This document shows positions 26,530 through 42,345 of a DNA stretch of 64,000 bases, in pieces (position 1 is the first letter of the stretch; each line of letters begins with the position of its first letter). The notes beneath the pieces were generated by a model. The model did no database searches. It was not told the DNA's origin and saw nothing but the letters and a program-made list of their open reading frames with translations. The stretch covers positions 186,001 through 250,000 of the forward strand of contig NZ_JAVDBT010000001.1 of the NCBI RefSeq assembly GCF_030848395.1, read 5' to 3'. The stretch is from Pseudogemmobacter lacusdianii (GTDB lineage: Bacteria > Pseudomonadota > Alphaproteobacteria > Rhodobacterales > Rhodobacteraceae). Both the position numbers and the translations under genes were made by a program.

Positions 26530-26559
26530 TTGACCCAATTGGAACGGTCCAATACTTAT
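26530..26559 (+). promoter_or_regulatory. Candidate promoter of the 14-gene catabolic operon
   Basis: TTGACC at 26530-26535 resembles a -35 box; the -10 would lie in the AATACTTAT stretch at 26551-26559, which matches the consensus poorly. The first LacI-type operator occupies the spacer. Position fits a start of transcription about 30 bases before the first gene. Confidence 0.45.
26538..26553. promoter_or_regulatory. LacI-family operator, copy 1
   Basis: TTGGAACGGTCCAA (26539-26552) has near-symmetric arms around a central CG, as LacI-family operators do. It is identical in its 14-bp core to the copy 23 bp downstream and overlaps the probable promoter spacer. The LacI-family gene at the end of the operon is the likely ligand-controlled repressor. 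Confidence 0.65.
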
Positions 26560-26561
26560 TT

Positions 26562-26576
26562 TTGGAACGGTCCAAT
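26562..26576. promoter_or_regulatory. LacI-family operator, copy 2
   Basis: Second exact copy of TTGGAACGGTCCAA, 23 bp centre to centre from the first and 25 bp before the first start codon. It would lie near the transcription start. Two copies so close suggest cooperative binding on one face of about two helical turns. Confidence 0.65.
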
Positions 26577-26600
26577 TTTCAGTCTGAGGAGGGAGAGCCG

Positions 26601-27596
26601 ATGCGCTGGATACTGGTTGGGGCAAGCACGATTGCGGCTGAACATATGATCGGCGCCTTTCGGGGGCAGGGTCATGCGGTGGTGCATGTCGTCTCGACCA
26701 CGGCGGCGCGGGCGGCGGAATTTGCGGCCACGCATGGGATTGCGGGTTCGGGCGACGATCTGACGGCGGCTTTGGCGGCGGGGGATGCGGTCTATATCTC
26801 CTCGACCAATGAAAAGCACCGCGCGCAGGCTTTGGCGGCGATTGCGGCGGGCAAGCATGTTTTGTGCGAAAAGCCCTTGGCGATGAGCGTGGCTGAGGCG
26901 CGGGAGATGGTTGAGGCGGCCGATGCCGCGGGGGTGGTTTTTGCCACCAACCATCATTTGCGCTGCTCGGGCAGTCATCGCAAGGTGCGGGAGTTGATCG
27001 AGGGCGGCCGGATTGGTCGGGTGCTTTCGTTGCGGATTTTCCATGCCGTGCATCTGCCGCCGCATTTGCAGGGCTGGCGGATCACCGATCCCGGCGCGGG
27101 GGGCGGCGTGATCCCCGATATCACGGTGCATAACGCTGATGTGGCGCGGTTCTTGCTGGGGGAAGATCCGCAAGAGGTGGTGGCGCAGATGGCGGCCTCG
27201 GGGCTGGGGCAGGGGGTCGAGGATTCGGCGATGTCGATCTGGTCGATGCCCTCGGGCGCGATGGTGTTTTCCCATGAGAGCTTCACCCATCCCTTTGCAG
27301 GCTCGGGGCTGGAGGTGCATGGCACCGAGGGGTCGATCTTTGCGCGGGGCGTGATGACGCAGCGGCCCTTGGGCGAGATTGAGCTGGTGAGTGCGGCGGG
27401 GCGCGAGGCTATCCCCTTCTCGGAGCACAATCTTTACAGCATGGGCGTGGCGGAATTTGCTTCTGCGGTCGAAGGCAAGGGCCGTCCGGCGGCGGATGGC
27501 TGGGACGGGGTTGCCTCGCTCACGGTGGCTTTCGCGGTGCGGGAGGCGGCGCGGACCGGGGTGAAGCAAGCGGTGAAGATCGGCGGTGCGGTATGA
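26601..27596 (+). CDS. Gfo/Idh/MocA family oxidoreductase
   Basis: 331 residues. An N-terminal NAD(P)-binding fold starts at MRWILVGASTIAAEHM, and the family signature EKPLAMS with the catalytic lysine is at about residue 91-97 (HVLCEKPLAMSVAEA). The C-terminal half has the HNADVARFLLGEDP segment expected near the active site. These enzymes oxidise or reduce sugars, inositols and related polyols. GAGGAGGGAG precedes the start. It is first in the operon behind the LacI-type operators and overlaps the CoA-transferase gene by ATG-A. Confidence 0.88.
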   Translation: MRWILVGASTIAAEHMIGAFRGQGHAVVHVVSTTAARAAEFAATHGIAGSGDDLTAALAAGDAVYISSTNEKHRAQALAAIAAGKHVLCEKPLAMSVAEAREMVEAADAAGVVFATNHHLRCSGSHRKVRELIEGGRIGRVLSLRIFHAVHLPPHLQGWRITDPGAGGGVIPDITVHNADVARFLLGEDPQEVVAQMAASGLGQGVEDSAMSIWSMPSGAMVFSHESFTHPFAGSGLEVHGTEGSIFARGVMTQRPLGEIELVSAAGREAIPFSEHNLYSMGVAEFASAVEGKGRPAADGWDGVASLTVAFAVREAARTGVKQAVKIGGAV

Positions 27597-29164
27597 GCAA
27601 GCTGGTCTCGGCCGCGGAGGCGGTTGCGCGCATCGGTGATGGCGCGGTGGTTACGGTCTCGTCCTCTTCGGCCTTGGGCTGCCCGGATCTGGTGCTGAAA
27701 GCCTTGGGCGAGCGCTTCCGGGCCGAGGGGCATCCGCGGGGGCTGACCACGCTGCATCCGATTGCGGCGGGCGATATGTATGGCGTGAAGGGGATTGATT
27801 GGATCGCGCAGGACGGGCTTTTGGCGCGGGTTCTGGCGGGGTCTTACCCTTCGGGCTCGTCCAATCTGCCGATGCCCGAGATCTGGAAAATGATTACCGA
27901 AGAACGGGTTGAGGCCTATAACGTGCCTTCGGGGATCATGTTCGACATGCACCGCGAGGCGGCGGCGCGGCGGCCGGGGGTGATGACGCGGGTCGGGCTG
28001 AAGACCTTTGTCGATCCGGTGCGGCAGGGCTGCGCGATGAACGCCAAAGCGGCGGCGAAGCCGATTGTCTCTCGCGTCGAATTCGGCGGCGAGACTTGGC
28101 TGCATTTCCCCAATATCCAGCCCAATGTCTGCATTCTGCGCGCCACCACGGCGGATGAATGGGGCAATCTGACCTATGAGCATGAGGGTGCTTATCTGGG
28201 CGGCTTGGAGCAGGCGATTGCCACCCGCAACAATGGCGGGCTGGTGATTGCGCAGGTGAAGCGGGTCACCGCGCGCGGGTCTTTGCGGCCGCATGATGTG
28301 CGGGTGCCGGGGCATCTTGTCGATCTTATCGTGCAAGATCGTGAGCAAAAACAAACCACTGAGACGCCCTATGATCCGGCGATCTCGGGTGAGGTGATCC
28401 GGCCTTGGTCAAGCTTCTCCTTGGCCGAGCATGGGGTTGAGAAGGTCATCGCCCGGCGCGCCGCGATGGAGCTGCGCAAGGGGATGACAGCCAATTTGGG
28501 CTTTGGCATCTCGGCCATGGTGCCGCGCGTTTTGCTGGAAGAGGGCCAAGCGCAGGCGGTCACTTGGGCGATTGAGCAGGGCGCGGTGGGCGGCATGCCA
28601 TTGACCGGATTTGCCTTTGGCTGTGCCTCGAATGCCGATGCCTATGTGCCTTCGCCGCAGCAGTTTATCTACTTCCAAGGCGGCGGGTTCGATATGTCGT
28701 TCCTCTCGTTCATGGAGGTTGATGTGCAGGGCAACGTCAATGTCTCAAAACTGGGCAAGAAACCCTATTTGACGGCGGGTTGCGGCGGGTTTGTCGATAT
28801 CACCTCGGCCGCGAAGAAGCTGGTTTTCTCGGGCTGGTTTGAGGCTGGCGCGCAGATTGACTTGGACAAATCAGGCCTTCGTGTCTCCCAGCCGGGGAAA
28901 TTTACCAAGATGGTTGCAGAAGTCGAACATGTCACCTTTTCGGGTGAGCGTGCGCGGGAACAAGGACAAGACGTGCTTTATATTACGGAACGCTGCGTGA
29001 TGCGGCTGTCGGATCAAGGGCTGGTGGCCACCGAGATCATGCCCGGCATCAATGCTGAGCGGGATATTGTGGCGGCATCTGAAGGCCGGGTGCGGATTGC
29101 GGAGAATGCGGTGACGATGCCGCTGAGCCTTTTGGCGGAAGGTCCGATGGGGTGGTCGGCATGA
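27593..29164 (+). CDS. Acyl-CoA:acetate/3-ketoacid CoA-transferase (YdiF/propionate CoA-transferase type)
   Basis: 523 residues, a fused alpha-beta family I CoA-transferase. The putative catalytic glutamate is Glu328 in AIEQGAVGG, the position that forms the glutamyl-CoA intermediate in this family. The N-terminal half contains the TVSSSSALGCPDLVLKALG start and the NVPSGIMFDMHREAA segment typical of YdiF. It would move CoA from a donor such as acetyl-CoA onto a carboxylic acid produced by the pathway. Overlaps both neighbours by ATG-A. Confidence 0.87.
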   Translation: MSKLVSAAEAVARIGDGAVVTVSSSSALGCPDLVLKALGERFRAEGHPRGLTTLHPIAAGDMYGVKGIDWIAQDGLLARVLAGSYPSGSSNLPMPEIWKMITEERVEAYNVPSGIMFDMHREAAARRPGVMTRVGLKTFVDPVRQGCAMNAKAAAKPIVSRVEFGGETWLHFPNIQPNVCILRATTADEWGNLTYEHEGAYLGGLEQAIATRNNGGLVIAQVKRVTARGSLRPHDVRVPGHLVDLIVQDREQKQTTETPYDPAISGEVIRPWSSFSLAEHGVEKVIARRAAMELRKGMTANLGFGISAMVPRVLLEEGQAQAVTWAIEQGAVGGMPLTGFAFGCASNADAYVPSPQQFIYFQGGGFDMSFLSFMEVDVQGNVNVSKLGKKPYLTAGCGGFVDITSAAKKLVFSGWFEAGAQIDLDKSGLRVSQPGKFTKMVAEVEHVTFSGERAREQGQDVLYITERCVMRLSDQGLVATEIMPGINAERDIVAASEGRVRIAENAVTMPLSLLAEGPMGWSA

Positions 29165-29928
29165 GCTCTTTGGATCTGACGATTTCCGGCGCGGTGGCCG
29201 AGCTGCGGCTCAATAACCCCAGCAAGCTTAATTGCTTCACCAATGACATGCTGGCGCAATTGGCCGGACATCTGGAGCGGGTTGAGGGCGACCCAGTTGT
29301 GCGGGCTTTGATCGTGACGGGCGAGGGCAGCCGGGCGTTTTGCTCGGGCGCGGATATCAACGCTTGGGGGCCTTTGGGTCCGGCGGAATTTGCGCGCCAT
29401 TGGGTGCGCAGCGGGCATCGCCTCTTTGACCGGCTGGCGCGGCTGGCCAAGCCGACGATTGCGGCGATGAATGGCCATGCCTTTGGCGGCGGGCTGGAGC
29501 TGGCCGCGGCTTGCGACATTCGCGTGATGGTTCCGAGTGCCACCATTGCCTTGCCGGAAGCGGGCGTCGGTGTGGTGCCGGGTTGGTCGGGCACGCAGCG
29601 GCTGGCGCGGCTGATCCCCGAGCCGGTTTTGAAGGAAATGGCGCTCTTTGGCCGCCGCCTGAGTGCCGAGCGCGCGCTCCAGCTGGGCTTCATTGCCGAA
29701 CTGGCCGAGGATGCAAATGCCGCCGCCCATGCCATTGCCGAGAAGGCGCTGGGCCTGTCGCCGCGCTCGGTTGAGATCAACAAGGCGATGATCCATGCCG
29801 CGCAAGGCGAGGATCGTGCCGCTATGGTCGAGGCCTTGGGCTCGGCTGCCATCGGGGCCAGTGCCGACCGCGAAGAGGGCGTTGCCGCCTTCCGCGAAAA
29901 GCGCCCGCCACAATTTACAGGACTGTAA
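29161..29928 (+). CDS. Enoyl-CoA hydratase/isomerase family protein
   Basis: 255 residues, crotonase fold. The oxyanion loop is FCSGADI and the signature NGHAFGGGLELAAACDIR is present. Both glutamates needed for hydration in classical enoyl-CoA hydratase are conserved: Glu113 (GGGLE) and Glu133 (LPEAGVG). True hydratase activity is therefore plausible rather than isomerase only. The start overlaps the CoA-transferase stop (ATG-A); an in-frame ATG three codons earlier is less likely. Substrate unknown. Confidence 0.9.
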   Translation: MSSLDLTISGAVAELRLNNPSKLNCFTNDMLAQLAGHLERVEGDPVVRALIVTGEGSRAFCSGADINAWGPLGPAEFARHWVRSGHRLFDRLARLAKPTIAAMNGHAFGGGLELAAACDIRVMVPSATIALPEAGVGVVPGWSGTQRLARLIPEPVLKEMALFGRRLSAERALQLGFIAELAEDANAAAHAIAEKALGLSPRSVEINKAMIHAAQGEDRAAMVEALGSAAIGASADREEGVAAFREKRPPQFTGL

Positions 29929-29930
29929 CG

Positions 29931-31457
29931 ATGAGCGATTTGACCCTGATTCCGGCTGTGTCCATGGCTTTGCCGGAAACCCCCTACCACGCGCGCCATT
30001 TCATCAATGGTGTCTATTGTGACAGCGCCGATGGTGTGGTGACCGAGCGGATTTCGCCCTCACATGGCGTGGTGGTGAGCCGGGCGGCGCGGGGCGGGGT
30101 CGCTGAGACAGAGGCCGCGATTGCGGCGGCGCGGGCGGCCTTTGACGATGGCCGTTGGAGCGGGCTTTCGGGCAAGGCGCGCGCCACGGTGCTCTTCCGC
30201 GTGGCGGATTTGATTGAGAAAAACGTCGAGCGGCTGGCGCTTTTGGAGACGTTGGAATCCGGCAAGCCGATCAGCCAGTCGCGCGGCGAATGTGGCGGCG
30301 TGGCGGATCTGTGGCGTTATGCGGCCTCACTCGCCCGCACGTCGCATGGCGACAGCCATAATAATCTGGGCGAGGATATGCTCGCCATGGTGATGAAAGA
30401 GCCGATTGGCGTCGTCTCGATCATCACGCCGTGGAATTTCCCGTTTTGGATCTTGGGGCAAAAGCTGCCCTATGCGCTGGCTGCGGGCTGCACCTGCGTG
30501 GTGAAACCCTCGGAGATGACGCCTTCGACCACGGCGATCTTGGGCGAGATCTTGAACGAGGCGGGGATGCCTGCGGGCGTGGTCAATATCGTGCTGGGTC
30601 TGGGCCAGCCGGTTGGCGCTTTGATGGCGGAACATCCGTCGGTGGATATGGTGACTTTCACCGGATCGACGGCGGTGGGGCGGTCGATCACCGCCGCCGC
30701 CTCGGGCACGCTGAAGAAGGTGGCGCTGGAGCTGGGCGGGAAGAACCCGCAGGTGATTTTCCCCGATGCCGATCTGGAAAGCGCCGCCGATGCGGTGACC
30801 TTTGGCGTCTATTTCAACGTTGGACAATGCTGCAATGCGGGCAGCCGGATCATCGTGCATGAGGATATTGCCGAGGCCTTTACCGCCCGCGTGATGGAGC
30901 TGTCGCGCAAGGTGGCCTTTGGCGATCCTTTGGATCCGCGCACCCAAGTGGGGGCGATCGTCACCCCGGCGCATCAGCAAAAGATTGACGGTTTTGTGCA
31001 GGCCGCAAAAGCGGATGGTGCCAAGATTGCCATGGGCGGCGGCGCGCTTTCCGTGCCGGGTTTGACGGGGGAATTCTACCAGCCCACCGTCATCACCGGC
31101 GTACGTCCAGAGATGGCGATTGCCCGCGATGAGGTCTTTGGCCCGGTGCTTTCGGTCCTGACCTTCCGGACGCTTGACGAAGCGATCCGCTTGACCAACG
31201 ATGCCTCATACGGACTGTCGGCGGGGGTGTGGAGTGAGAATGTCCACACCTGTCTTGAGTTTGCTCGCCGCGCGCAGGCTGGCACGGTTTGGACCAACAC
31301 TTGGATGGATGGCTTCGCCGAGGTTTCATTTGGAGGAATGAAGCAATCGGGTCTGGGGCGTGAGAATGGTCGCTACGGAATGGAGGAATTTCTTGAGGTG
31401 AAATCGCTGGTCATGCGCATCGGTCGCAGCCGCGCACCTTGGGTGAAAAGCATCTGA
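29931..31457 (+). CDS. NAD(P)-dependent aldehyde dehydrogenase
   Basis: 508 residues of the ALDH superfamily. Active-site residues are intact: Asn169 (PWNFP), Glu267 (ELGGKNPQ) and Cys301 (GQCCNAGSR); the cofactor loop is FTGSTAVGR. It resembles betaine aldehyde and hydroxymuconic-semialdehyde dehydrogenases, but it lies far from betA and within the sugar-type operon, so another aldehyde is more likely. It begins 2 bp after the hydratase gene. Expected to turn the aldehyde made by a GMC enzyme into the acid used by the CoA-transferase (inference). Confidence 0.9.
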
Positions 31458-31512
31458 CCTCGGACAGCTGGGGCAGGGACTGAATACAACGCAACGATGG
31501 GAGGAAAACCGT

Positions 31513-32772
31513 ATGCGTGGATTCAAGGGCTTGAAGATGACAATGGCAGCGGCGCTGCTGGCCTCGACCGCCAGCATGGCCGTGGCCGAGGATGTTGAGG
31601 TTCTGCACTGGTGGACCGCTGGCGGGGAGGCCGCGGCTCTGAACGTGCTGAAAGAGGATTTGGCCAGCAAGGGCATTGGCTGGGTCGATATGCCGGTCGC
31701 CGGTGGCGGCGGTGAAGCGGCGATGACGGCTTTGCGCGCCCGCGTCACCGCAGGCGATGCGCCGACGGCCGTGCAGATGCTGGGCTTTGACATCCTGGAC
31801 TGGGCGAAAGAAGACGGCGTTCTGGGCAATTTGGATGAGGTTGCAGCGGCTGAGGGCTGGGATGCGGTGATCCCGGCGGCGCTGCAGGCGTTTTCGAAAT
31901 ATGACGGCCATTGGATCGCGGCTCCGGTCAACGTCCACTCGACCAACTGGGTTTGGATCAACAAAGCCGCTCTGGATGCGACCGGCCTTGGCGAGCCGAC
32001 CAATTTCGACGAGCTGGTCGCGGTTCTGGATAAGATGAAAGAGGCCGGGATCACCCCGATCGCGCATGGCGGCCAAGCGTGGCAGGACGGCACCGTCTTT
32101 GACGCTTTGGTGCTGGCGCAAGGCTCTGATTTCTACAAAGCGGCCTTTGTGGATCTGGACCCGGCGGCGCTGGGCGGCGCGCAAATGGCGACGGCTTTCG
32201 ACCAACTTCTGAAGCTGCGCACCTATTTTGACGACAACTTCTCGGGCCGCGATTGGAACCTTGCCTCGAGCATGGTGATCAATGGCGAGGCCGGCATGCA
32301 GTTCATGGGTGACTGGGCCAAGGGCGAGTTCCTGAAGGCCGGCAAAGTGCCGGGCACGGATTTCGTCTGCATTCGCTTCCCGGGCACCCAAGGTTCGGTC
32401 ACGTTTAACTCGGACCAATTCGTGATGTTCAACGTGCAAGGCGAGGGCAAGAAAGCCGCCCAAGCCGCGATGGCATCGGCGATTGAAAGCCCGACCTTCC
32501 AAGCCGCCTTTAACGTGGTCAAAGGCTCGGTCCCGGCTCGCACCGATGTGCCGGACACCGATTTCGATGATTGCGGCAAGAAGGGCATGAAGGATCTGGC
32601 CGAAGCCAGCGCGAATGGCGCGCTTCACGGCTCGATGGCGCATGGCCACGGCGCACCGGCTGCGGTGAAAAACGCCACCTATGACGTGATCACCGCCGTG
32701 GTGAACGGCGAATACAGCGATGGCGCTTCGGCGGCGACGGCTTTGGCCGATGCCGTGGCTGCGGCGCAATAA
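31513..32772 (+). CDS. Glucose-type carbohydrate ABC transporter, substrate-binding protein (GtsA-like)
   Basis: 419 residues with a cleavable signal ([15 protein letters not shown]). The mature start [20 protein letters not shown], then [20 protein letters not shown] and [18 protein letters not shown], closely recalls the glucose/mannose-binding GtsA/GltB group of CUT1 receptors. GGAGG precedes the start. Strong binding proteins of this group take glucose, mannose or galactose, but neighbours here contain no sugar kinase or isomerase, so a glucose-like derivative is possible. Hairpins follow the gene. Confidence 0.9.
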
Positions 32773-32782
32773 GCGAGACTGT

Positions 32783-32833
32783 CCGGGGGCGGTTTGGCCG
32801 CCCTCGGAGCCTTGCCACTGGGGGTAAGCCCCC
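32783..32833 (+). promoter_or_regulatory. Two hairpins between binding-protein and permease genes
   Basis: CCGGGGGCGG (32783-32792) pairs with CCGCCCTCGG (32798-32807), and GGGGG-TAAG-CCCCC follows at 32820-32833. Such structures after a binding-protein gene usually protect its mRNA 3' end and lower expression of the membrane parts. No T run. Confidence 0.6.
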
Positions 32834-32878
32834 GATCTCGTTTGAGTTTTCACCGCCCGCAGGGAAGGGAGCACCTTT

Positions 32879-33775
32879 ATGGCTGCGCCAGCACCGGCCG
32901 ATTTTCGCACGCGCCTTCAGGATTGGTTGCCCAAGCTAGTGCTTGCGCCCTCCTTCGCGGTGACGATCCTGTTTGTTTACGGCTTCATCATCTTCACGAT
33001 CTTTTTGTCCTTCACCGGCTCAAAGATGCTGCCAAAGTTCGACACTTGGGTCGGGTGGGCGAATTATCACCGGCTGTTTTCGCTGCCCGAGTGGAACATC
33101 GCGCTGAAGAATATTGCCATATTCGCAAGCCTTTACATCATCATCTGCACCGCGATTGGGCTGATGTTGGCGATCTTTCTGGACCAGAAAATCCGCGGCG
33201 AGGGCGGCTTGCGCCCGATCTACCTTTACCCAATGGCGCTAAGCTTCATCGTGACCGGCACGGCGTGGAAATGGTTCCTCGACCCCGGCATCGGGCTTGA
33301 GAATGTGATGCATCAATGGGGCTGGGAGAGTTTCAGCTTCAATTGGATCAAATCCAATACGATGGCGATCTATACGATTGTGATCGCGGCGGTCTGGCAG
33401 ACCTCGGGCTTTGTGATGGCGATGTTCTTGGCGGGGCTGCGCGGCATCGACAATGAGATCTTAAAGGCGGCGCAGATTGATGGTGCGTCGAACTGGCAGC
33501 TCTATCGGCGCATCGTGATCCCGCTGTTGCGCCCGGCTTTCCTGAGCGCTTTCGTGATCCTGAGCCATCTCGCGATCAAATCCTATGACCTCGTGATCGC
33601 ACTGACCAATGGCGGGCCGGGGCGGGCGACCGCGATGCCCGCGACCTTCATGTATTCCTACACTTTCACCCGCAATGAGATGGGGGTGGGGGCGGCCTCG
33701 GCGGTGATCATGCTGATGACGATTGCGGCGATCATGGTGCCTTACCTTTACGCCGAGCTGAAGGAGAAGAAGTGA
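32879..33775 (+). CDS. Carbohydrate ABC transporter permease 1 (CUT1, MalF type)
   Basis: 298 residues with six hydrophobic segments, beginning KLVLAPSFAVTILFVYGFII. The ATPase-contact EAA loop is EILKAAQIDGASNWQLYRRIVIP near residue 200, the MalF-type form. It pairs with permease 2 and the ATPase to form the inner-membrane channel for the ligand of the adjacent binding protein. Its stop overlaps the next start (TGATG). Confidence 0.93.
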   Translation: MAAPAPADFRTRLQDWLPKLVLAPSFAVTILFVYGFIIFTIFLSFTGSKMLPKFDTWVGWANYHRLFSLPEWNIALKNIAIFASLYIIICTAIGLMLAIFLDQKIRGEGGLRPIYLYPMALSFIVTGTAWKWFLDPGIGLENVMHQWGWESFSFNWIKSNTMAIYTIVIAAVWQTSGFVMAMFLAGLRGIDNEILKAAQIDGASNWQLYRRIVIPLLRPAFLSAFVILSHLAIKSYDLVIALTNGGPGRATAMPATFMYSYTFTRNEMGVGAASAVIMLMTIAAIMVPYLYAELKEKK

Positions 33776-34653
33776 TGTCCGCTGTGACCCAAGACACTTC
33801 AGTCTCGACCGGCCGCGTGACCCGCGCCTTCATCTATCTGGTGCTGATCCTGTTCGCTTTGTTCTACCTGCTGCCGCTTTATGTGATGGTGGTGAACTCC
33901 TTGAAACCGCTGCCGGAAATCACCGGCGGCAATATGATGGCTTTGCCGCGCGAATGGACGCTTGAGGCTTGGGGATCAGCTTGGTCGACGGCGCAGATTG
34001 GCGTCTCGCCCACCGGGTTGAAGCCCTATTTCCTCAATTCGATCATGATGGTGGTGCCGGCGGTGGCTTTGTCCACGATGATCGGCGCGATGAACGGTTA
34101 TATCCTGACCAAATGGCGCTTTCGCGGCGATGTTTGGGTGTTCGGGCTGATGCTCTTTTCCTGCTTCATCCCGTTCCAGATCGTGCTGATCCCGATGGCG
34201 CGGGTCTTGGGGATGCTGGGCCTTGCAGGCTCGGTTCCCGGGCTGATTTTGGTGCATTTGGTCTACGGCATCGGCTTTAGCACGCTTTACTTCCGCAACT
34301 ATTATGCCGCCTTCCCGACCGAGCTGGTGCGCGCCGCGCAGATCGATGGCGCGGGCTTCTTCCGCATCTTCTGGCGCATCCTTTTGCCGGTCTCTGGCCC
34401 GATCGCAGTGGTCACGATCATCTGGCAATTCACCAATATCTGGAATGACTTCCTGTTCGGTGCCTCCTTCGGTGGGGTCAACCAGCCGATGACGGTGGCG
34501 CTGAATAACCTCGTGCAATCTTCGACCGGCGTGAAGGAATATAACGTCCATTTCGCCGGCGCGATCCTTGCCGCTCTTCCCACTCTTTTTGTCTACATCG
34601 TCGCGGGGCGTTACTTCGTCCGCGGTCTGATGGCTGGCTCTGTGAAAGGCTGA
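33775..34653 (+). CDS. Carbohydrate ABC transporter permease 2 (CUT1, MalG type)
   Basis: 292 residues from the ATG in TGATG; an in-frame GTG immediately before is an alternative. AAGGAG lies at good spacing. Membrane segments start with YLVLILFALFYLLPLYVMVV and the EAA loop is ELVRAAQIDGAGFFRIFWRI near residue 190. The family marker NSL (VVNSLKP) after the first membrane helix is present. Partner of permease 1. Confidence 0.93.
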   Translation: MSAVTQDTSVSTGRVTRAFIYLVLILFALFYLLPLYVMVVNSLKPLPEITGGNMMALPREWTLEAWGSAWSTAQIGVSPTGLKPYFLNSIMMVVPAVALSTMIGAMNGYILTKWRFRGDVWVFGLMLFSCFIPFQIVLIPMARVLGMLGLAGSVPGLILVHLVYGIGFSTLYFRNYYAAFPTELVRAAQIDGAGFFRIFWRILLPVSGPIAVVTIIWQFTNIWNDFLFGASFGGVNQPMTVALNNLVQSSTGVKEYNVHFAGAILAALPTLFVYIVAGRYFVRGLMAGSVKG

Positions 34654-34656
34654 CCG

Positions 34657-35769
34657 ATGGGCTTTCTTGATATTTCCAACGTCACCAAATCTTACGGCTC
34701 GGTTCAGGTCTTGCACCAAGTCGATATCGCGGTGGAGGAGGGCGAGTTTTTGGTCCTCGTCGGGCCCTCGGGCTGTGGAAAGTCCACGCTTCTCAATATG
34801 ATCGCGGGGCTGGAAAGCATCACCAGCGGTGAGATCCGGATCAAGGATCGCGTGATGAACGGGGTGCATCCGTCGAAGCGCAATATCGCGATGGTGTTCC
34901 AGTCCTACGCTCTCTACCCGAATATGACCGTGGGCCAGAATATGACCTTCGGGCTTGAAATGCATGGCGTGCCGAAGCCCGAGCGCGACAAGGCTTTGGC
35001 CGATGTGGCTAAGCTTTTGCAAATCGACCATCTTTTGGACCGCAAGCCGGGGCAGCTTTCCGGTGGGCAGCGGCAAAGGGTGGCGATGGGGCGGGCCTTG
35101 GTGCGCGACCCGGATGTGTTTTTGTTCGATGAGCCGTTGTCGAACCTTGATGCAAAGCTGCGCGTCGATATGCGGACTGAGATTAAGAAACTCCATCAAA
35201 AGCTGAAGACGACAATTGTTTATGTGACGCATGACCAGATCGAGGCGCTGACGCTGTCGACGCGGATTGCGGTGATGAACAAGGGGTTTGTGCAGCAACT
35301 CGGCACGCCGAAGGAGATCTATGATCAGCCGGCGAACCTGTTTGTGGCGACCTTCATGGGCAGCCCGGCGATGAATATCATCCCGACAAAAGTGGTGCTG
35401 GAAGGCGATGCGCCGCATGCCGAGCTGAGTGATGCCGAGGGCAACCGGGTGCTTCTGGCGCTCAATCAGCGCAACCTGACCGCTTGGGCGGGGCGCGAGA
35501 TCCTTCTGGGGATCCGGCCCGAGGCGATCACCGATCCGGAAGGGGCGGATCGCAACTCGGGGTCGATCCGGCCGCTGTCGAATGTGGTCACAGTGACCGA
35601 GCCTGCGGGAGCGGATACCTTCGTCACCATGAGCCTTTCGGGCAAGGATGTGATCGCAAGGATGCGGGCGGATGCGGCGGTGCATCCGGGGCAAAGGTTT
35701 GAGTTTGCGGTGAATATGGAAAAGGCCGTGGCCTTTGATCCGCAGACCGAGGCACGGATTACCCCCTGA
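34657..35769 (+). CDS. Carbohydrate ABC transporter ATPase (UgpC/MsmK type)
   Basis: 370 residues. Walker A GPSGCGKST is at 37-45, the signature LSGGQRQRVAMGRAL near 134, Walker B VFLFDEPLSNLDAKL, and the switch histidine in YVTHD. A C-terminal TOBE/OB regulatory region (LLGIRPEAI and onward) follows, as in MalK/UgpC. The stretch IEALTLSTRIAVMNKG differs from the usual EAMTLADRI, a harmless variant. It powers the importer and starts 3 bp after permease 2; it overlaps the next gene by TGATG. Confidence 0.94.
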   Translation: MGFLDISNVTKSYGSVQVLHQVDIAVEEGEFLVLVGPSGCGKSTLLNMIAGLESITSGEIRIKDRVMNGVHPSKRNIAMVFQSYALYPNMTVGQNMTFGLEMHGVPKPERDKALADVAKLLQIDHLLDRKPGQLSGGQRQRVAMGRALVRDPDVFLFDEPLSNLDAKLRVDMRTEIKKLHQKLKTTIVYVTHDQIEALTLSTRIAVMNKGFVQQLGTPKEIYDQPANLFVATFMGSPAMNIIPTKVVLEGDAPHAELSDAEGNRVLLALNQRNLTAWAGREILLGIRPEAITDPEGADRNSGSIRPLSNVVTVTEPAGADTFVTMSLSGKDVIARMRADAAVHPGQRFEFAVNMEKAVAFDPQTEARITP

Positions 35770-37253
35770 TGCAGCCTGACATTCTGATCATCGGTTCCGG
35801 CATGGGCGGGGCCACGCTGGCCGCCGCGCTGGCGCCCTCGGGCCGTCGGATCGTGATCCTTGAGCGCGGCGCGCGGCTTATGGATCGCCCCGAGGCTCGT
35901 GACCCCGATGCGATCTTTCGGCGTGGGTTTTTCAAGCCGAAGGAACTGTGGAAAGACGCCTCGGGCCAAGAGTTTGAGCCGGGGAATTATGCCTGCGTCG
36001 GCGGCAATTCGAAGTTCTACGGCGCGGTGCTGACCCGATACCGCGCGGAAGATTTCGCGCCTTTGCAGCATATGGGGGGCAGAACGCCGGGCTGGCCGAT
36101 TGGTTATGCGGATTTGGAGCCCTATTATTCCAAGGCCGAGCAGCTTTACCGCGTGCGCGGCGAGGATGGCGCGAATGACCCTTCCGAGCCGCCGCATTCG
36201 GCGCGCTACCCCTATCCGCCGGTGCCCGATGAGCCTGATGTGGCCGCATTGCGCAAGGCCTTGGCGGCGCAAGGCTTGCACCCCACCGCCTTGCCGGTCG
36301 GCGTGGATATCGAGGCTTGGCTGAAGCGCGCGCCGACGACCTGGGACGCGTTTCCTTGCACGACGGGGGCAAAATCCGATGCCGAAAGCTGCGGTCTGGC
36401 CGAGGCTTTGAAGTATCCCAATGTCACCTTGCTGACCGAGACGCGGGTGGTGCGGGTTCTGAGCGAAGGCCGACGGGTGACCGGGGTGGAGGTCGAGCGG
36501 CAGCGCAAGCGTGAAGTGATGAGCGCGCCGGTGATCTGCCTTTGCGCGGGCGCGGTGATGTCGGCGGCCCTGCTTTTGGCCTCGGCCAATGCCGAGCATC
36601 CGCAGGGGCTGGCCAATAGCTCGGACCAATTGGGTCGCAATTTCATGAACCATAACCTCACGGGCGTGGTGGCTTGGAACCCTTTGCGGCGCAACCGCAC
36701 CATCTATGAAAAGACGATTCAGTTTAACGATTGGTATCTGACCGGCGGGCCGGGTGGGGCGCCTTTGGGCAATGTGCAGATGCTGGGCCGGGTGACAGGG
36801 ATGATATTGGCCGGGGAATCCGGGCTGCCCTTGTGGGCCGCGCGGCATATTGCGGATCATTCGATGCATCTTCTGGCGATGTCCGAGGATCTGCCGGATC
36901 CCAACTCGCGGGTGCTTTGGCGCGATGGTGTGGTGCTCGATTGGCGGCGCACCAATGTGCAAGCGCATGATATTTTGGTGAAAAAGCTGAAAGCCGCTTT
37001 GCGAAAGGCCGGCTGGCCGATCGTCTTTGCGCAAGCTTTCCCGAAGTCGAAACCCAGCCATCAATGCGGCACCGCGCGGATGGGGCGAGATCCGGCGCAG
37101 TCTGTGGTGGACCCCAATCTCAAAGCGCATGACTTCGACAATCTTTATATCGTCGACGCCTCGGTCCTGCCGACTTCGGCGGCGGTTAACCCTTCCTTGA
37201 CCATCGCAGCGCTGGCCACGCGGGCGGGCGCGCATATCCGGAGCCTGCCATGA
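35769..37253 (+). CDS. GMC family oxidoreductase 1 (sugar dehydrogenase-like)
   Basis: 494 residues with FAD-binding GSGMGGA at 8-14 and a second FAD segment CVGGNSKFYGAVLTRY. The catalytic histidine is in PSHQCGTARMG and the second active-site residue is Asn in NPSLTIAALA. Its shorter GMC form with SHQCGTARMG resembles glucose/glucoside 3-dehydrogenase, gluconate 2-dehydrogenase and pyranose oxidase-like enzymes rather than choline dehydrogenase. No signal peptide is seen. It directly follows the transporter ATPase, so a transported sugar-like alcohol is a likely substrate. Confidence 0.85.
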   Translation: MQPDILIIGSGMGGATLAAALAPSGRRIVILERGARLMDRPEARDPDAIFRRGFFKPKELWKDASGQEFEPGNYACVGGNSKFYGAVLTRYRAEDFAPLQHMGGRTPGWPIGYADLEPYYSKAEQLYRVRGEDGANDPSEPPHSARYPYPPVPDEPDVAALRKALAAQGLHPTALPVGVDIEAWLKRAPTTWDAFPCTTGAKSDAESCGLAEALKYPNVTLLTETRVVRVLSEGRRVTGVEVERQRKREVMSAPVICLCAGAVMSAALLLASANAEHPQGLANSSDQLGRNFMNHNLTGVVAWNPLRRNRTIYEKTIQFNDWYLTGGPGGAPLGNVQMLGRVTGMILAGESGLPLWAARHIADHSMHLLAMSEDLPDPNSRVLWRDGVVLDWRRTNVQAHDILVKKLKAALRKAGWPIVFAQAFPKSKPSHQCGTARMGRDPAQSVVDPNLKAHDFDNLYIVDASVLPTSAAVNPSLTIAALATRAGAHIRSLP

Positions 37254-38029
37254 GCCAGCCTCCTGTTGCCCAGAAGCCTCTGGCCCTGATCACTGGCGGT
37301 CAGCAAGGCATCGGCCTTGGCATCGCGCAAGCCTTGCAGGGGGCAGGGTTTCGCATCGCTGTTGCCTCCTTGCCAGAGGCCAATGCCGCTGCGGTGCGCG
37401 AAGGCATGGCCGGTTTGGGTCATGAGGCGCAATATTATCAATATGATATGGCGCAGACCTCAGGCGCGGCGGCGTTGCTTGCCGCGGTTGAGGCCTCGCT
37501 TGGGCCGATCAGCTGCTTTGTCGCCAATGCCGGTGTTCCGGCCAAAATCCGCGGCGATCTTTTGGAGATCACGCCCGAGGCTTGGGATCATGTCCTTGAC
37601 GTCAATCTGCGCGGCACCTTCTTTCTGGCGCAAGAGGTGGCGCGGCGCATGGTGGCACGGCAGTCCCGGCATTACCGTTCGATCAGCTTTGTGACCTCGG
37701 CCTCGGCTGAGATGGTCAGCATCGAACGCGGCGAATATTGTATTTCAAAATCAGGCGCTTCGATGATGGCAAAGCTCTTTGCCCTACGCCTTGCACCACT
37801 CAACATCGGCGTCTTTGAGCTGCGCCCCGGTATCATCGCAACCGAGATGACCGCTGGCGTGAAAGAGAAATACAGCGCCCGGATCGAGGCCGGCTTGGTT
37901 CCCGCACAACGCTGGGGCGCGCCGGAGGATATTGGCCGGGCCGTGGTGCCTTTGGCCTTGGGTCAAATGGCATTCGCCACGGGCATGGTGGTGCCGCTGG
38001 ACGGCGGCCTTTCGGTGCCGCGGCTGTGA
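37250..38029 (+). CDS. Short-chain dehydrogenase/reductase
   Basis: 259 residues, classical SDR. The cofactor motif is TGGQQGIGLG (near 15-24), the NAG element is VANAGVP, the catalytic serine lies in FVTSASAEM, and the Tyr-Lys pair in EYCISKSGA. The C-terminus ends in the usual VVPLDGGLSVPRL. It resembles 3-oxoacyl-ACP reductase-like sugar or polyol dehydrogenases (YgfF type). It overlaps GMC 1 by ATG-A; AT-rich hairpins follow. Confidence 0.9.
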   Translation: MSQPPVAQKPLALITGGQQGIGLGIAQALQGAGFRIAVASLPEANAAAVREGMAGLGHEAQYYQYDMAQTSGAAALLAAVEASLGPISCFVANAGVPAKIRGDLLEITPEAWDHVLDVNLRGTFFLAQEVARRMVARQSRHYRSISFVTSASAEMVSIERGEYCISKSGASMMAKLFALRLAPLNIGVFELRPGIIATEMTAGVKEKYSARIEAGLVPAQRWGAPEDIGRAVVPLALGQMAFATGMVVPLDGGLSVPRL

Positions 38030-38038
38030 GCGGGTCGC

Positions 38039-38084
38039 AAAATTCTCTGAAGAATTTTGCCAAGAATTTTCAAAAATTCTTGGC
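38039..38084. promoter_or_regulatory. Two back-to-back AT-rich palindromic hairpins inside the operon
   Basis: AAAATTCT-CTGA-AGAATTTT (38039-38058) is a perfect 8-bp stem. Immediately after it, 38059-38070 pairs with 38073-38084 as a perfect 12-bp stem with a 2-base loop. The AATTTT/AAAATT content stands out from GC-rich surroundings. They sit 10 bp past the SDR stop and 31 bp before the next start. Possible roles are partial termination, RNA end protection or a mobile repeat unit. Confidence 0.75.
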
Positions 38085-38114
38085 GCCGGCGGAAGCGTCG
38101 GAAGGAGGGGTATG

Positions 38115-39713
38115 ATGCAAAAAGCGTATGATTACATCATCATCGGTGGCGGCTCAGCGGGCTCGGTTCTGGCCGCGCGTCTCTCTGAGGACCCGACAGC
38201 GCAGGTCTTGCTGCTCGAGGCGGGGGGGCGCGACTCCCATCCTTTTTACCACCTGCCTGCGGGTTTTGCGAAGATGACCAAGGGCATCGGCTCTTGGGGG
38301 TGGCAGACCGTGCCGCAGCGCCACATGAAGGGGATGCAAATCCGCTACACGCAAGCGAAGGTGATCGGTGGTGGTTCCTCGATCAATGCGCAGATCTACA
38401 CCCGCGGCAATGCGCTGGATTACGATGAATGGCGCCAACTTGGTTGCTCCGGCTGGTCTTATGAAGATGTGCTGCCCTATTTTCGAAAAGCCGAGGACAA
38501 CGACAGTTTTGACAATCGCTATCACGGCAAGGGCGGCCCTTTGGGCGTCAGCCAGCCGCGTGCGCCCTTGCCGATTTGCGAAGCTTGGTTTGCGGCGGCC
38601 GCTCAGATGGGCATCCCGCGCAATCATGATTTGACCGGCGAGAGCCAAGACGGGGTCGGTTATTATCAGCTAACGCAGCGACATTATCGGCGCTCTTCGG
38701 CCGCCATTGCCTATCTGCGCCCGGCCCAGCATCGGCCCAATCTGACGGTGAAAACCGGGGTGCAGGTGCTGCGAATTGTGGTCGAGAAGGGCAGGGCCGT
38801 GGGGGTGGAGACGCCTGATGGGGTATTGCGGGCCTCGAGTGAGGTGATCCTCTCTGCCGGGGCCATAGGTTCGCCGCGTCTGTTGCAGCTTTCCGGTATC
38901 GGGCCAGCGGATGAGCTGCGAAATCTTGGGATTCCGGTGGTGCTGGATCAGCCGGAGGTTGGGGCTAACCTGCAAGATCACTTGGATCTTTTCGTCATTG
39001 CCGAATGCACCGGCCCGCATACCTATGACCGTTTCGCCAAGCCGCATCTCTCGGCTTTGGCGGGGTTGCAGTATCTATTGACCCGGCGGGGACCTGTCGC
39101 CTCGAGCCTTTTTGAGACCGGGGGCTTTTGGTATGCCGAGGAGGGCGCGCGGAGCCCCGATATCCAGTTCCATCTGGGGCTTGGCTCGGGGATCGAGGCC
39201 GGTGTTGCGGCGATGCCGCAAGGTGGGGTGACGCTGAACTCAGCCTATCTGAGGCCGCGCTCGCGCGGGACGGTGCGGCTGGCATCCAGCGATCCCTTGG
39301 CCGCACCGCTGATTGACCCCAATTATTGGGAGGATCCGCATGACCGCGAAATGTCGATCCGCGGGCTGAAGCTGGCGCGGGAGATGATGGCGCAAGAGGC
39401 GCTGCACCCCTATGTGCTGGCCGAGCGTCTGCCGGGGCCTAATGTGCGGACAGATCAGGACTATTTCGATTACGCCTGCCAGCATGCAAAGACCGATCAC
39501 CATCCGTCCGGCACATGCCGGATGGGGCAGGATGCGCAAGCGGTGGTGAACCCCGAGCTGCGTTTCAACGGGATCGAGGGTTTACGGGTCGTTGATGCCT
39601 CGGTGATGCCGCGGGTGGTCTCGTCCAACACCAATGCGCCGACGATCATGATTGCGGAGAAGGCCGCCGATATGATTAAGGCGGCGCGGCCAGGCTCAGG
39701 GGCGCTCCAATGA
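38115..39713 (+). CDS. GMC family oxidoreductase 2 (choline/alcohol dehydrogenase-like)
   Basis: 532 residues; two ATGs in tandem (38112 and 38115), the second better spaced from AGGAGG. FAD site GGGSAGSVLAARL, GMC signature AKVIGGGSSINAQIYTRG, and active-site His in HHPSGTCRMG with Asn in SNTNAPTIM. It belongs to the alcohol dehydrogenase (acceptor)/polyethylene glycol dehydrogenase/AlkJ branch, which oxidises primary alcohols to aldehydes and passes electrons to the respiratory chain. With the aldehyde dehydrogenase this gives alcohol-to-acid chemistry. Overlaps the Dabb gene by ATG-A. Confidence 0.88.
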   Translation: MQKAYDYIIIGGGSAGSVLAARLSEDPTAQVLLLEAGGRDSHPFYHLPAGFAKMTKGIGSWGWQTVPQRHMKGMQIRYTQAKVIGGGSSINAQIYTRGNALDYDEWRQLGCSGWSYEDVLPYFRKAEDNDSFDNRYHGKGGPLGVSQPRAPLPICEAWFAAAAQMGIPRNHDLTGESQDGVGYYQLTQRHYRRSSAAIAYLRPAQHRPNLTVKTGVQVLRIVVEKGRAVGVETPDGVLRASSEVILSAGAIGSPRLLQLSGIGPADELRNLGIPVVLDQPEVGANLQDHLDLFVIAECTGPHTYDRFAKPHLSALAGLQYLLTRRGPVASSLFETGGFWYAEEGARSPDIQFHLGLGSGIEAGVAAMPQGGVTLNSAYLRPRSRGTVRLASSDPLAAPLIDPNYWEDPHDREMSIRGLKLAREMMAQEALHPYVLAERLPGPNVRTDQDYFDYACQHAKTDHHPSGTCRMGQDAQAVVNPELRFNGIEGLRVVDASVMPRVVSSNTNAPTIMIAEKAADMIKAARPGSGALQ

Positions 39714-40018
39714 TCCGCCATATTGTCTTGGTGAAATTCCGTCCCGAGATGACGGAGGCTGAGATTGCGGCGCTCTTTGCCGATCTGGGGAAGATCACGC
39801 AGAAATTGTCGGGGGCGCTGGACATTCGCGCTGGCAAGAGCGAAAGCCCCGAGCAGATTGAACGAGGCTATCTTCATGGTTTCACGATTGATTTTGAAGA
39901 TTGGCAGGCGCTTTCCGCCTATCAGGACCATCCAGATCACCGCCGTCTTGGCGCGCGCCTTGTGGCTTCGGCGGTTGGTGGGCTGGACGGCATTTTGGTC
40001 TTTGACCTGAGTTGCTGA
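39710..40018 (+). CDS. Dabb (stress-responsive A/B barrel) domain protein
   Basis: 102 residues. MIRHIVLVKFRPEMTEAEI at the start and YQDHPDHRRL near residue 75 are hallmarks of the Dabb family of dimeric alpha/beta barrels. Family members include hydratase- and cyclase-like enzymes and many of unknown role; His4 and the HPDH region are candidate active-site residues. Coupled to GMC 2 by ATG-A, so it probably acts on a pathway intermediate. Confidence 0.85.
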   Translation: MIRHIVLVKFRPEMTEAEIAALFADLGKITQKLSGALDIRAGKSESPEQIERGYLHGFTIDFEDWQALSAYQDHPDHRRLGARLVASAVGGLDGILVFDLSC

Positions 40019-40091
40019 GGGGCTGCTATGTTGCCGCTGCTGACCATACCTTGCTGCTATAAGCGCTCTGCACAGTCGGGGCGGCGTTAAG

Positions 40092-41093
40092 ATGGAGCGG
40101 CGTCCGACCATCATCGACGTGGCCAAGGCGGCGGGGGTTTCCAAATCCACCGTCTCGCTCGTCTTGCAGAACTCACCTTTGGTGAAGCGTGAAACCCGCG
40201 AGGATGTGCGCCGGGTGATGCGCGAGATTGGCTATGTCTATAACCGTGCGGCGGCCAACCTGCGGTCTTCGAACGTGGGACTTATTGGTCTTGTCATCAA
40301 TGACTTGCGCAATCCGTTCTTCACGGAGTTTGCCACATCGGTGCAGATGGCGCTTTCGGCGCGGGGCTATGCGACGGTGGTTGCCAACACGGATGAAGAT
40401 GCCGAGGTGCAAGGTCAAGTCGTGGGCGCGATGATCGAACATGGCGTCTCGGGGCTGATCTTATCCTCGGCCTATGGCGCCGTGGAGCGGGGCTTTGAGC
40501 AAATCGCGCGCTCGGGCATTCCGACCTTGCAGGTGTTGCGCCACGCGCATCCTGACACCGAGCTTTTCCCCTTTGCGGCACCCGATGGGCCGCAAGGAGG
40601 CCGGCTTGCGACGCTGCATCTGTTGCAGCAAGGCGCCAAGCGGATAGCGTTTGCGGGGGGGCTGATGGGCCGCTCGGTCACCGAGGCGCGGCTTGCGGGC
40701 TATCGCGCGGTTTTGGCTGAAAGGGGCCTGCCCGAGCGGGTGCTGACTGGGCGTCCGAACCGCGCCTTTGGCCGTGAGGCGGCGCTGTGGCTGGCCAAAG
40801 ATTACCCCGACGTTGATGCGGTCTTGTGCTTTAACGATTTGACCGCATTGGGAATTATGTCTGGCTGTGCCGAGATTGGCCGCCGAGTGGGGCCGGATCT
40901 GAAAGTGGCCGGCTTCGATGATATCGAGGAAAGCGCGCTGGTGTTTCCCAGCCTGACCTCGGTGCGCAGCAATATCGCGGGCTTCGGTCAGGCGATGGCT
41001 GCAAACCTGCTTGCTTGGCTGGAAGAAGGTGTGAAACCTGCCGCCGAAATTTTGTCTCCTGTGGAGTTGATCACCCGTGCCTCAACGCAATGA
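40092..41093 (+). CDS. LacI-family transcriptional repressor of the operon
   Basis: 333 residues. The N-terminal helix-turn-helix is TIIDVAKAAGVSKSTVSLVL, followed by the hinge region and a periplasmic-binding-like sensor domain (GLIGLVINDLRNPFFTEFA). It most likely binds the two TTGGAACGGTCCAA sites at the front of the operon and releases them on binding a pathway sugar or intermediate. It overlaps the glycerate kinase gene by 17 bp. No operator copy is visible directly before it. Confidence 0.9.
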   Translation: MERRPTIIDVAKAAGVSKSTVSLVLQNSPLVKRETREDVRRVMREIGYVYNRAAANLRSSNVGLIGLVINDLRNPFFTEFATSVQMALSARGYATVVANTDEDAEVQGQVVGAMIEHGVSGLILSSAYGAVERGFEQIARSGIPTLQVLRHAHPDTELFPFAAPDGPQGGRLATLHLLQQGAKRIAFAGGLMGRSVTEARLAGYRAVLAERGLPERVLTGRPNRAFGREAALWLAKDYPDVDAVLCFNDLTALGIMSGCAEIGRRVGPDLKVAGFDDIEESALVFPSLTSVRSNIAGFGQAMAANLLAWLEEGVKPAAEILSPVELITRASTQ

Positions 41094-42345
41094 TCTGACC
41101 GATCGCCCCGCCTTTTTGCGGCGTCTTTTCGACCGCGCCGTCGAGGTGGCCGATCCGATGCGCGCCTTGGCCGCGCATTTGCCACCGAAGCCTGAGGGGC
41201 GGGTTGTGGTTGTGGGGGCCGGCAAAGCCTCGGCCCGGATGGCGGAGGCGGTTGAAGCGGTTTGGGGGCCTTGCGAAGGGCTAGTGATCACCCGCTATGG
41301 CTATGGTCGCCCTTGCCAAGGCATTGAAATTGCTTTGGCGGCCCATCCGGTGCCGGATCAAGCCGGGGCCGATGCGACGGCGCGGATGCTGGCGCTTTTG
41401 GACGGGCTTGGGCCAGATGATTTCGTGCTCGCGCTGATTTCCGGCGGTGCCTCGGCCCTGCTCTGCGCGCCAAGTGAGCGCGTAACTTTGGCCGAAAAGC
41501 AGGCGGTGAATGCGGCGCTGCTGGCCTCGGGGGCGCCGATCTCGGCGATGAACACCTTGCGCAAGCACCTGAGCCGGGTGAAGGGCGGCCAGTTGGCGGC
41601 GGCGGCTTACCCTGCACAGATGCTGGCACTGATGATCTCGGACGTGCCGGGGGATGATCCGGCCTTCATCGGCTCGGGCCCGACGGTGGGCGATGCGACG
41701 ACCCCGGCCGAGGCGGAGGCGATCCTGGACCGCTGGCAGATCTCGGTGCCCGGCCATGTGCGGGCCGCGTTGGCGCACTCGGGTGTGGTGCCGCCCAAGG
41801 ATGCGCGATTGGCGCAGGTCAGCAACCACATCTTCGCGGCCCCGGCGCAATCCCTTGAAGCTGCGGCAGAAATTGCCCGCGAGCTGGGGGTTGAGGTGCG
41901 GGTACTGGGCGACGCTTTAGAGGGCGAGGCGCGGGATGTGGCTGCGGCGCAGGCCGCGATGGCCTTGGAGCTTGCCGCCGCGCGCCGCCCGGGAGATGCG
42001 CCGGTGCTGCTGCTTTCCGGAGGAGAGCTGACGGTCACACGCCGCGGCGATGGCAGCGGCGGACCCAATGCAGAATTTGCCTTGGCTTTGACGCTGGCTT
42101 TGCAGGGGCAAGAGGGCATTCACGCCATTGCCTGTGACACCGATGGCGTCGATGGCGCCGCCGAAGTGGCGGGGGCGGTTGTGACGCCGCAAACGCTGGT
42201 GCAGGCCGTCGCCGCAGGTTTGGATGCCGCTGCAGCCTTGGCAACGAATGACGCACACCGGTTCTTTGAGCAGGTCGGTGGACAGGTCGTCACCGGGCCG
42301 ACTTTGACGAATGTGAATGATTTCAGGGCGATATTGATCGGCTAA
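41077..42345 (+). CDS. Glycerate 2-kinase (TtuD/MOFRL family)
   Basis: 422 residues from a GTG start that overlaps the LacI gene. The N-terminal domain has VVVVGAGKASARMAEAVE and ALISGGASALLCAP; the C-terminal MOFRL domain has LLSGGELTVTRRGDGSGGPNAEFALAL fragments and CDTDGVDG. Older annotations call this family hydroxypyruvate reductase; the activity shown for members is D-glycerate 2-kinase (glycerate to 2-phosphoglycerate). It indicates that part of the substrate enters glycolysis as glycerate. Confidence 0.88.
   Translation: MPQRNDLTDRPAFLRRLFDRAVEVADPMRALAAHLPPKPEGRVVVVGAGKASARMAEAVEAVWGPCEGLVITRYGYGRPCQGIEIALAAHPVPDQAGADATARMLALLDGLGPDDFVLALISGGASALLCAPSERVTLAEKQAVNAALLASGAPISAMNTLRKHLSRVKGGQLAAAAYPAQMLALMISDVPGDDPAFIGSGPTVGDATTPAEAEAILDRWQISVPGHVRAALAHSGVVPPKDARLAQVSNHIFAAPAQSLEAAAEIARELGVEVRVLGDALEGEARDVAAAQAAMALELAAARRPGDAPVLLLSGGELTVTRRGDGSGGPNAEFALALTLALQGQEGIHAIACDTDGVDGAAEVAGAVVTPQTLVQAVAAGLDAAAALATNDAHRFFEQVGGQVVTGPTLTNVNDFRAILIG

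Follow-up and report, generated by a model that had tools for sequence, protein, structure and literature searches.

A cluster of 14 genes that most likely serves to import and burn 1,5-anhydro sugars by an oxygen-tolerant, coenzyme A (CoA)-dependent route not yet worked out was identified in the alphaproteobacterium Pseudogemmobacter lacusdianii. The genes lie at 26601-42345 of the window, a stretch of 64,000 nucleotides (positions 186,001 to 250,000 of contig NZ_JAVDBT010000001.1, assembly GCF_030848395.1), and are all read from its + strand. In the full scheme, 1,5-anhydrohexitols would be imported and oxidized via a CoA ester to 2-keto-3-deoxy-D-gluconate (KDG), a reading to which a probability of about 0.45 is assigned. 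To judge from the gene families, the substrate class of 1,5-anhydro sugars is fairly well supported and probably correct; the CoA route to KDG is tentative.

According to the accessible passages of a 2025 review (PMC12441222), Rhizobiaceae use 1,5-anhydrofructose (AF) through AF reductase (AFR), forming anhydromannitol, and the enzyme following AF reduction is still unidentified. The same passages state that an analogous oxidative pathway for 1,5-anhydroglucitol (AG) is not described, and that a probiotic to lower intestinal AG, of relevance to two inherited neutropenias, has little prospect of success without an enzyme that acts on AG in the presence of oxygen. If the present reading is true, the operon would supply the missing genes for aerobic anhydrosugar breakdown. 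It would be a concrete, testable gene set, assign a putative function to the DUF993 family and point to CoA-dependent dehydration as a means of opening anhydrosugars.

The AFR gene and the proposed pathway

The gene g1 (26601..27596) encodes a Gfo/Idh/MocA protein that by its sequence is a member of the AFR family with the catalytic motifs kept. Its best phmmer matches among solved structures are 2glx (E = 2.5e-101) and 4koa (7e-99), both deposited as 1,5-anhydro-D-fructose reductase, and the next distinct structure matches much more weakly (6e-26). The alignment retains the EKP and DITVHxAD motifs and the GASTIA loop of AFR, including the Lys, Asp and His that we take to be catalytic. The protein is 54% identical over 324 residues to the annotated AFR of Sinorhizobium meliloti Ak57. 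An inositol-dehydrogenase identity was rejected, as inositol 2-dehydrogenase reached 1.6e-21 in the same search that gave 2.5e-101 for AFR. The gene product is predicted to carry out the NADPH-dependent reduction of AF to anhydromannitol, and since g1 is an AFR, the substrate of the operon is likely a 1,5-anhydrohexitol. The AFR gene adjoins the same CoA-transferase gene in records of Sinorhizobium, Rhizobium, Shinella, Microvirga and Paraburkholderia.

Beyond AF reduction, each step of the pathway and the substrate itself are proposed from the gene families. The genes g5 (31513..32772), g6 (32879..33775), g7 (33772..34653) and g8 (34657..35769) encode a glucose-type sugar-binding protein (relatives 4r2b and 2b3b), two sugar ABC permeases and an ABC ATPase of the UgpC/MalK type, respectively. 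This importer would take up AG or AF; the solved relatives of the binding protein leave its ligand unfixed. GMCa (g9; 35769..37253), a glucose/fructose-dehydrogenase-like FAD enzyme of the GMC oxidoreductases, would oxidize AG at C2 to AF, which AFR would reduce to 1,5-anhydro-D-mannitol. GMCb (g11; 38118..39713, start at 38112 or 38118), a choline-dehydrogenase-like GMC protein proposed to act on the primary alcohol, would together with the aldehyde dehydrogenase (ALDH; g4; 29931..31457) oxidize C6 to give 2,6-anhydrohexonic acid. The CoA ester of this acid would be formed by the YdiF-type CoA-transferase (g2; 27593..29164), in which the Glu of the E-x-G motif aligns with that of YdiF. The crotonase-family enoyl-CoA hydratase/dehydratase (g3; 29152..29928) would then eliminate the beta-hydroxyl group (the old C4) to give an enol ether, and addition of water would open the ring to KDG. 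DUF993, found in relatives, would cleave KDG to pyruvate and glyceraldehyde, the latter leaving through glycerate 2-kinase (g14; 41077..42345; DUF4147/MOFRL); at other loci KDG would instead be phosphorylated by a KDG kinase.

Two catalytic glutamates mark the hydratases and dehydratases among the crotonases. Both positions are kept in g3, as aligned to 3-hydroxypropionyl-CoA dehydratase, so that it looks like a hydratase/dehydratase and not like a cleaving crotonase. Crotonases carry out syn elimination, a geometry available in gluco- and manno-configured pyranuronates because H5 and O4 lie cis to each other. By Fischer bookkeeping, elimination and ring opening lead to D-erythro KDG from 1,5-anhydro-D-mannitol and not from 1,5-anhydro-D-glucitol, and D-KDG therefore results only if AFR acts first. 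This would explain why the C2 oxidation and reduction pair of GMCa and AFR accompanies C6 oxidation, and why the exits consist of a KDG-kinase-like enzyme or of a protein resembling dihydrodipicolinate synthase (DHDPS) plus glycerate kinase.

An earlier note on this DNA, made from sequence alone, had proposed uptake, oxidation of an alcohol through an aldehyde to an acid, a CoA thioester, hydration and exit of a C3 piece through glycerate kinase. This outline fits the genes, and the unit has turned out to be conserved; g1 was not recognized there as AFR, the DUF993 gene of the relatives was not visible in it, and no cleavage enzyme was identified among the 14 genes.

Exit modules and DUF993

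Grouping of CoA-transferase sequences gave 89 distinct loci, of which 66, comprising those at >=62% identity together with L061 and L066, belong to the unit. The 55 of these that showed GMCb, DUF993 or a D2 gene were counted, the window's own short locus being excluded; D2 stands for one or more of the genes for a FAD oxidoreductase, a KDG-kinase-like and a levoglucosan-dehydrogenase-like protein. Genes were scored as present at 38% identity and 40% coverage from -9 to +17 kb. DUF993 occurs at 33 loci and D2 genes at 18; no locus has both, and four have neither (L116, L020, L127 and L132), the stretch of L116 ending early. The mutual exclusion gives p = 5e-11 in Fisher's test, a value inflated by the relatedness of the loci. 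The SDR gene is found at 33/33 DUF993 loci versus 1/18 D2 loci, and glycerate kinase at 15/33 (a count lowered by stretches ending early) versus 0/18. The D2 loci contain the FAD gene (13), the kinase gene (9), the levoglucosan-dehydrogenase-like gene (12) and AFR (5). The other genes are the hydratase (55 loci), GMCa (52), LacI (47), ALDH (45), each importer gene (43) and Dabb (40), together with GMCb (53/55, inflated by the counting choice); the loci themselves were retrieved with GMCa or the CoA-transferase. In genome G011 the unit occurs twice; D2 genes, SDR and GMCb are found at one place, and DUF993, glycerate kinase, GMCa and Dabb at the other. For the one D2 kinase tested, the best family was 2-dehydro-3-deoxygluconokinase (249.9 bits, cut-off 400), followed by fructokinase (125.1).

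DUF993 has no named family in NCBIfam, and a literature search on it returned no paper. Its predicted model suggests a DHDPS-like fold. The best match is 4dnh (SMc04132), which is uncharacterized and itself DUF993; dihydrodipicolinate synthases come next (E = 1.5e-4 to 7e-4, TM 0.43-0.60, root-mean-square deviation 7-8 A). A Gly-Ile-Lys motif is invariant in 18/18 DUF993 sequences and lies on a strand in the model, as does the Schiff-base lysine of DHDPS. That DUF993 is a new pyruvate-aldolase family, at the end of an aerobic route in which the CoA ester of a cyclic-ether sugar alcohol (AG, AF or anhydromannitol) is opened by a crotonase to KDG, is possible but doubtful.

Two further cluster types bear on this family. 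In the window's own genome (contig C1, some 83 kb ahead of the window), locus L044 (5125-15770) holds genes for LacI, a YdiF-like CoA-transferase (38% to g2), DUF993, SDR and an acyl-CoA dehydrogenase, with a small protein and transporter genes that by eye are MaoC-like and TRAP-like, respectively. A second type (L060, L067, L139-L142, L147-L148) combines the CoA-transferase and DUF993 with hydratase, SDR and Dabb in most, glycerate kinase in L067, L141 and L142, and also an acyl-CoA dehydrogenase, aldo-keto reductases and a sugar isomerase. It probably represents a related pathway for another sugar.

Points against the scheme and alternative routes

Several observations weigh against the scheme. 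Confidence in the DUF993 model is modest (pLDDT 68.6), it matches DHDPS structures only weakly (root-mean-square deviation 7-10 A), and 2-keto-3-deoxyarabonate dehydratase and KDG aldolase appear at E of about 0.01 alongside unrelated aldo-keto reductase barrels. DUF993 also stands beside CoA genes in clusters without AFR. The window operon has no DUF993 gene, which relatives carry and which this operon appears to have lost. The genome's single copy is a paralog (55%) that belongs to a different cluster; for the final step, the window operon would have to draw on a gene outside it. The best KDG-kinase match in the genome is weak (53.6 bits); a gene of the KDPG/KHG aldolase family is present. 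The KDG-kinase-like and levoglucosan-dehydrogenase-like D2 proteins score under curated cut-offs. The action of GMCa on AG is a proposal only, and no firm role can be given to the SDR, Dabb or the D2 flavoprotein. Three of the 33 close GMCa relatives (L003, L016 and L018) have GMCa but none of the other unit genes. At 8 of the 47 loci where >=1.2 kb of upstream sequence is available, AFR and the levoglucosan-dehydrogenase-like gene are both missing from view, although two of these (L007 and L012) end too early to reveal the latter. The one Bradyrhizobium plasmid opened, from 11 matched Bradyrhizobium records, has an AFR-like followed by a GMCa-like gene (L064, 16001-18667) and no CoA genes nearby; the pair standing alone suggests that the two enzymes are tied to each other. 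To these points are added a published proposal for the fate of anhydromannitol and two strong P450 matches in the window's genome, both outside the operon, which are taken up below.

AFR also reduces 2-keto aldoses. The substrate could be another hexopyranose derivative (a glucoside, an osone or a levoglucosan-like compound), with AFR reducing 2-keto pyranoses in general and the acid dehydrated as its CoA ester. The levoglucosan-dehydrogenase-like gene, which is present without AFR at 10 of the 12 loci having it, fits this, as does the dextrin-induced S. meliloti binding protein SMc04396 reported in the accessible part of PMC4960864. No glycosidase was assigned among the 14 genes, however, and g1 is matched best by two enzymes that were deposited under the name AFR. 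This reading is unlikely, though it survives best among the alternatives.

Somewhat more unlikely is C1 oxygenation of anhydromannitol to mannose by a P450-like enzyme, as proposed in the review passages cited above (PMC12441222), which leave that enzyme unidentified; the CoA, GMC and glycerate genes would then serve a second substrate of the same importer. The two P450 matches and the second binding-protein gene found between permease and ATPase genes in some relatives speak for it. Against it, family assignment gave neither an oxygenase nor a mannose enzyme among the 14 genes, and AFR and the CoA-transferase are adjacent in loci of several families. The second binding-protein gene (47-49% to g5) lies between g7 and g8 in L004, L005, L006, L015 and L019; it shares the permeases, and the importer may therefore serve two ligands.

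A beta-oxidation-like sugar-acid route is improbable. In it, SDR would oxidize the beta-hydroxyl group of the CoA-bound acid, and the resulting 3-keto ester would be split by DUF993 or a different enzyme, yielding glyceryl-CoA in the manner proposed for the Klebsiella deoxyribonate cluster. SDR accompanies DUF993 without exception, the second cluster type adds an acyl-CoA dehydrogenase and a CoA-bound analogue is proposed in the accessible text of PMC6365646, but no thiolase was assigned among the 14 genes, the nearest folds of DUF993 beyond its own family are dihydrodipicolinate synthases and the alternative exit includes a KDG-kinase-like protein. Thiolase-type cleavage was rejected because no thiolase is found among the 14.

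Comparison with known pathways

AF catabolism in Sinorhizobium morelense and S. meliloti is reportedly the subject of work by Kuhn et al. (2006). The anhydrohexitol scheme shares AFR with it, and S. meliloti has the same gene order around its annotated AFR gene (43-77% identities); it differs in the onward step, reported in the review passages as C1 oxygenation to mannose (PMC12441222). As described there, the anaerobic AG/anhydromannitol pathway of Escherichia coli (YbiW/PflD glycyl-radical lyases) acts on the same substrate class, but uses phosphorylation by the phosphotransferase system and oxygen-sensitive radical cleavage, and the 14 genes include none of those families. The CoA-dependent deoxyribonate cluster of Klebsiella michiganensis, as far as the available text describes it (PMC6365646), likewise has a sugar-acid CoA ester, a CoA-transferase and a glycerate kinase; it has a CoA-synthetase, a beta-hydroxyacyl-CoA dehydrogenase and a thiolase, where the operon has a hydratase, GMC enzymes and AFR, its SDR being of the PRK12745 type.

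The non-phosphorylative Entner-Doudoroff branch has glycerate 2-kinase and an aldolase of the DHDPS-fold family, to which g14 and, in relatives, the DHDPS-like DUF993 would correspond. The two differ in that DUF993 is no known KDG aldolase and KDG would be reached here via CoA esters.

Open-licence literature searches found, among the papers listed, none assigning this unit or its genes besides AFR, which does not prove that none exists, and the accessible part of a LacI-regulon paper contains nothing on the unit. The earlier note had held that a known characterized operon with the same set would refute its reading. The set does exist in S. meliloti beside an annotated AFR gene, and no paper was found assigning its other genes.

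Distribution of the gene cluster

Thirteen of the 14 window genes have a counterpart (43-77% identity) in a single S. meliloti run, in the order LacI, AFR, CoA-transferase, hydratase, ALDH, binding protein, two permeases, ATPase, GMC, SDR, GMC and glycerate kinase. The order is the same as in the window except that LacI stands at the front; DUF993 is divergent there, and no Dabb counterpart was found in the S. meliloti stretch. By gene order, the run should be SMc04401 to SMc04389 in S. meliloti 1021, where the available part of PMC12542648 gives SMc04390-92 as L-sorbose dehydrogenase, SDR and putative dehydrogenase. The unit recurs in Rhodobacterales and Rhizobiales, so that the search of other genomes for the same gene order, suggested in the earlier note, succeeded. 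An arbitrary gene collection was rejected, because the order recurs too widely.

A scan of named genomes with GMCa gave 41 loci, consisting of 33 relatives (64-81% identity) and eight distant ones (25-52%). Among the 33, L017 has GMCa and glycerate kinase, and the stretch of L032 stops at GMCa. Where the remaining genes are present their relative order is kept, some loci lacking the importer, or AFR, ALDH and the importer. GMCb is apparently split over two frames in L010 (11495-13068). Two distant GMCa relatives from Myxococcota/Deltaproteobacteria (L037, 8407-11461; L041, 8290-11458) lie behind a crotonase-like gene and a gene for a small protein, which in L037 resembles gluconate dehydrogenase subunit 3 just under the cut-off (23.0 of 23.4 bits) and in L041 has no family match.

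Among plasmid records, the CoA-transferase was matched in 276 (E <= 1e-60) and AFR in 35 (E <= 1e-50). At E <= 1e-150 the CoA-transferase is found in 8/385 genomes sampled from the class and 63/295 from the family, the window's genome being counted in both. The 65 places in the family comprise 38 at >=75% identity, which are the operon unit, and 27 at 56-61%. Ten of the 12 opened from the latter have an acyl-CoA dehydrogenase relative next to SDR, DUF993 or both and are another cluster type. An E. coli cluster (L062, 5496-12481; CP054241.1) contains genes for LacI, a CoA-transferase (about 60% to g2), an enoyl-CoA hydratase, an Nramp transporter and a FAD oxidoreductase, and bears a near-match of the operon's operator (2 mismatches); its stretch is matched in 825 of 5426 E. 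coli genomes, in 824 of them over >=80%.

Operon organization and regulation

The 14 genes form a real operon by their arrangement, presumably with a single transcript. Gaps and overlaps range from about -17 to +106 bp, which bears out the one-strand, tightly packed set described in the earlier note; that description is corrected in two points, namely that the start of gene 1 is at 26601 and that LacI is encoded by gene 13. The remaining genes g10 (37250..38029), g12 (39710..40018) and g13 (40092..41093) encode the SDR oxidoreductase (PRK12745 type), the Dabb small protein and the LacI-family regulator, respectively.

Two LacI-type operators, exact 14-base copies of TTGGAACGGTCCAA on the + strand, lie 23 bp apart upstream of g1 (26539..26575; copies at 26539 and 26562). 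With g13, they agree with the operators and own LacI repressor claimed earlier, and LacI acting at the twin sites would control the whole unit. The pattern has four matches at <=2 mismatches with both strands counted, a number reached in 0/100 shuffles, and the pair is the sole exact occurrence in the 3.78-Mb genome. Genome-wide, <=2 mismatches gave 25 places (reverse readings of the same sites included) against 26 for a reversed control pattern; with no excess at this level, it is the exact pair alone that is distinctive.

A site within 2 mismatches of the consensus TTGGAACGTTCCAA, which was picked after inspecting these loci (<=2 stretches scanned per locus), is present at 57 of the 63 unit loci with upstream sequence in view, 38 having two or more; four of the six misses (L004, L006, L021 and L022) start within gene 1. 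Random 381-base stretches of the same loci matched in 66 of 1260 cases with the real sites left in, and among 22 other loci the site was found only in two E. coli records. A reverse-strand LacI-type gene lies between the ALDH and binding-protein genes in L059 and L063 (annotated) and L021 (by eye), so that the unit is split there.

Terminator-like sites are not in excess in the region (12 versus a shuffle mean of 17.6); one such hairpin lies at 32819, 3' of g5. The upstream flank carries, on the - strand, genes for an AI-2E-family transporter, a weakly Hda-like protein, ppk and ppx, and the downstream flank a class-II tRNA synthetase gene; these look unrelated to the operon.

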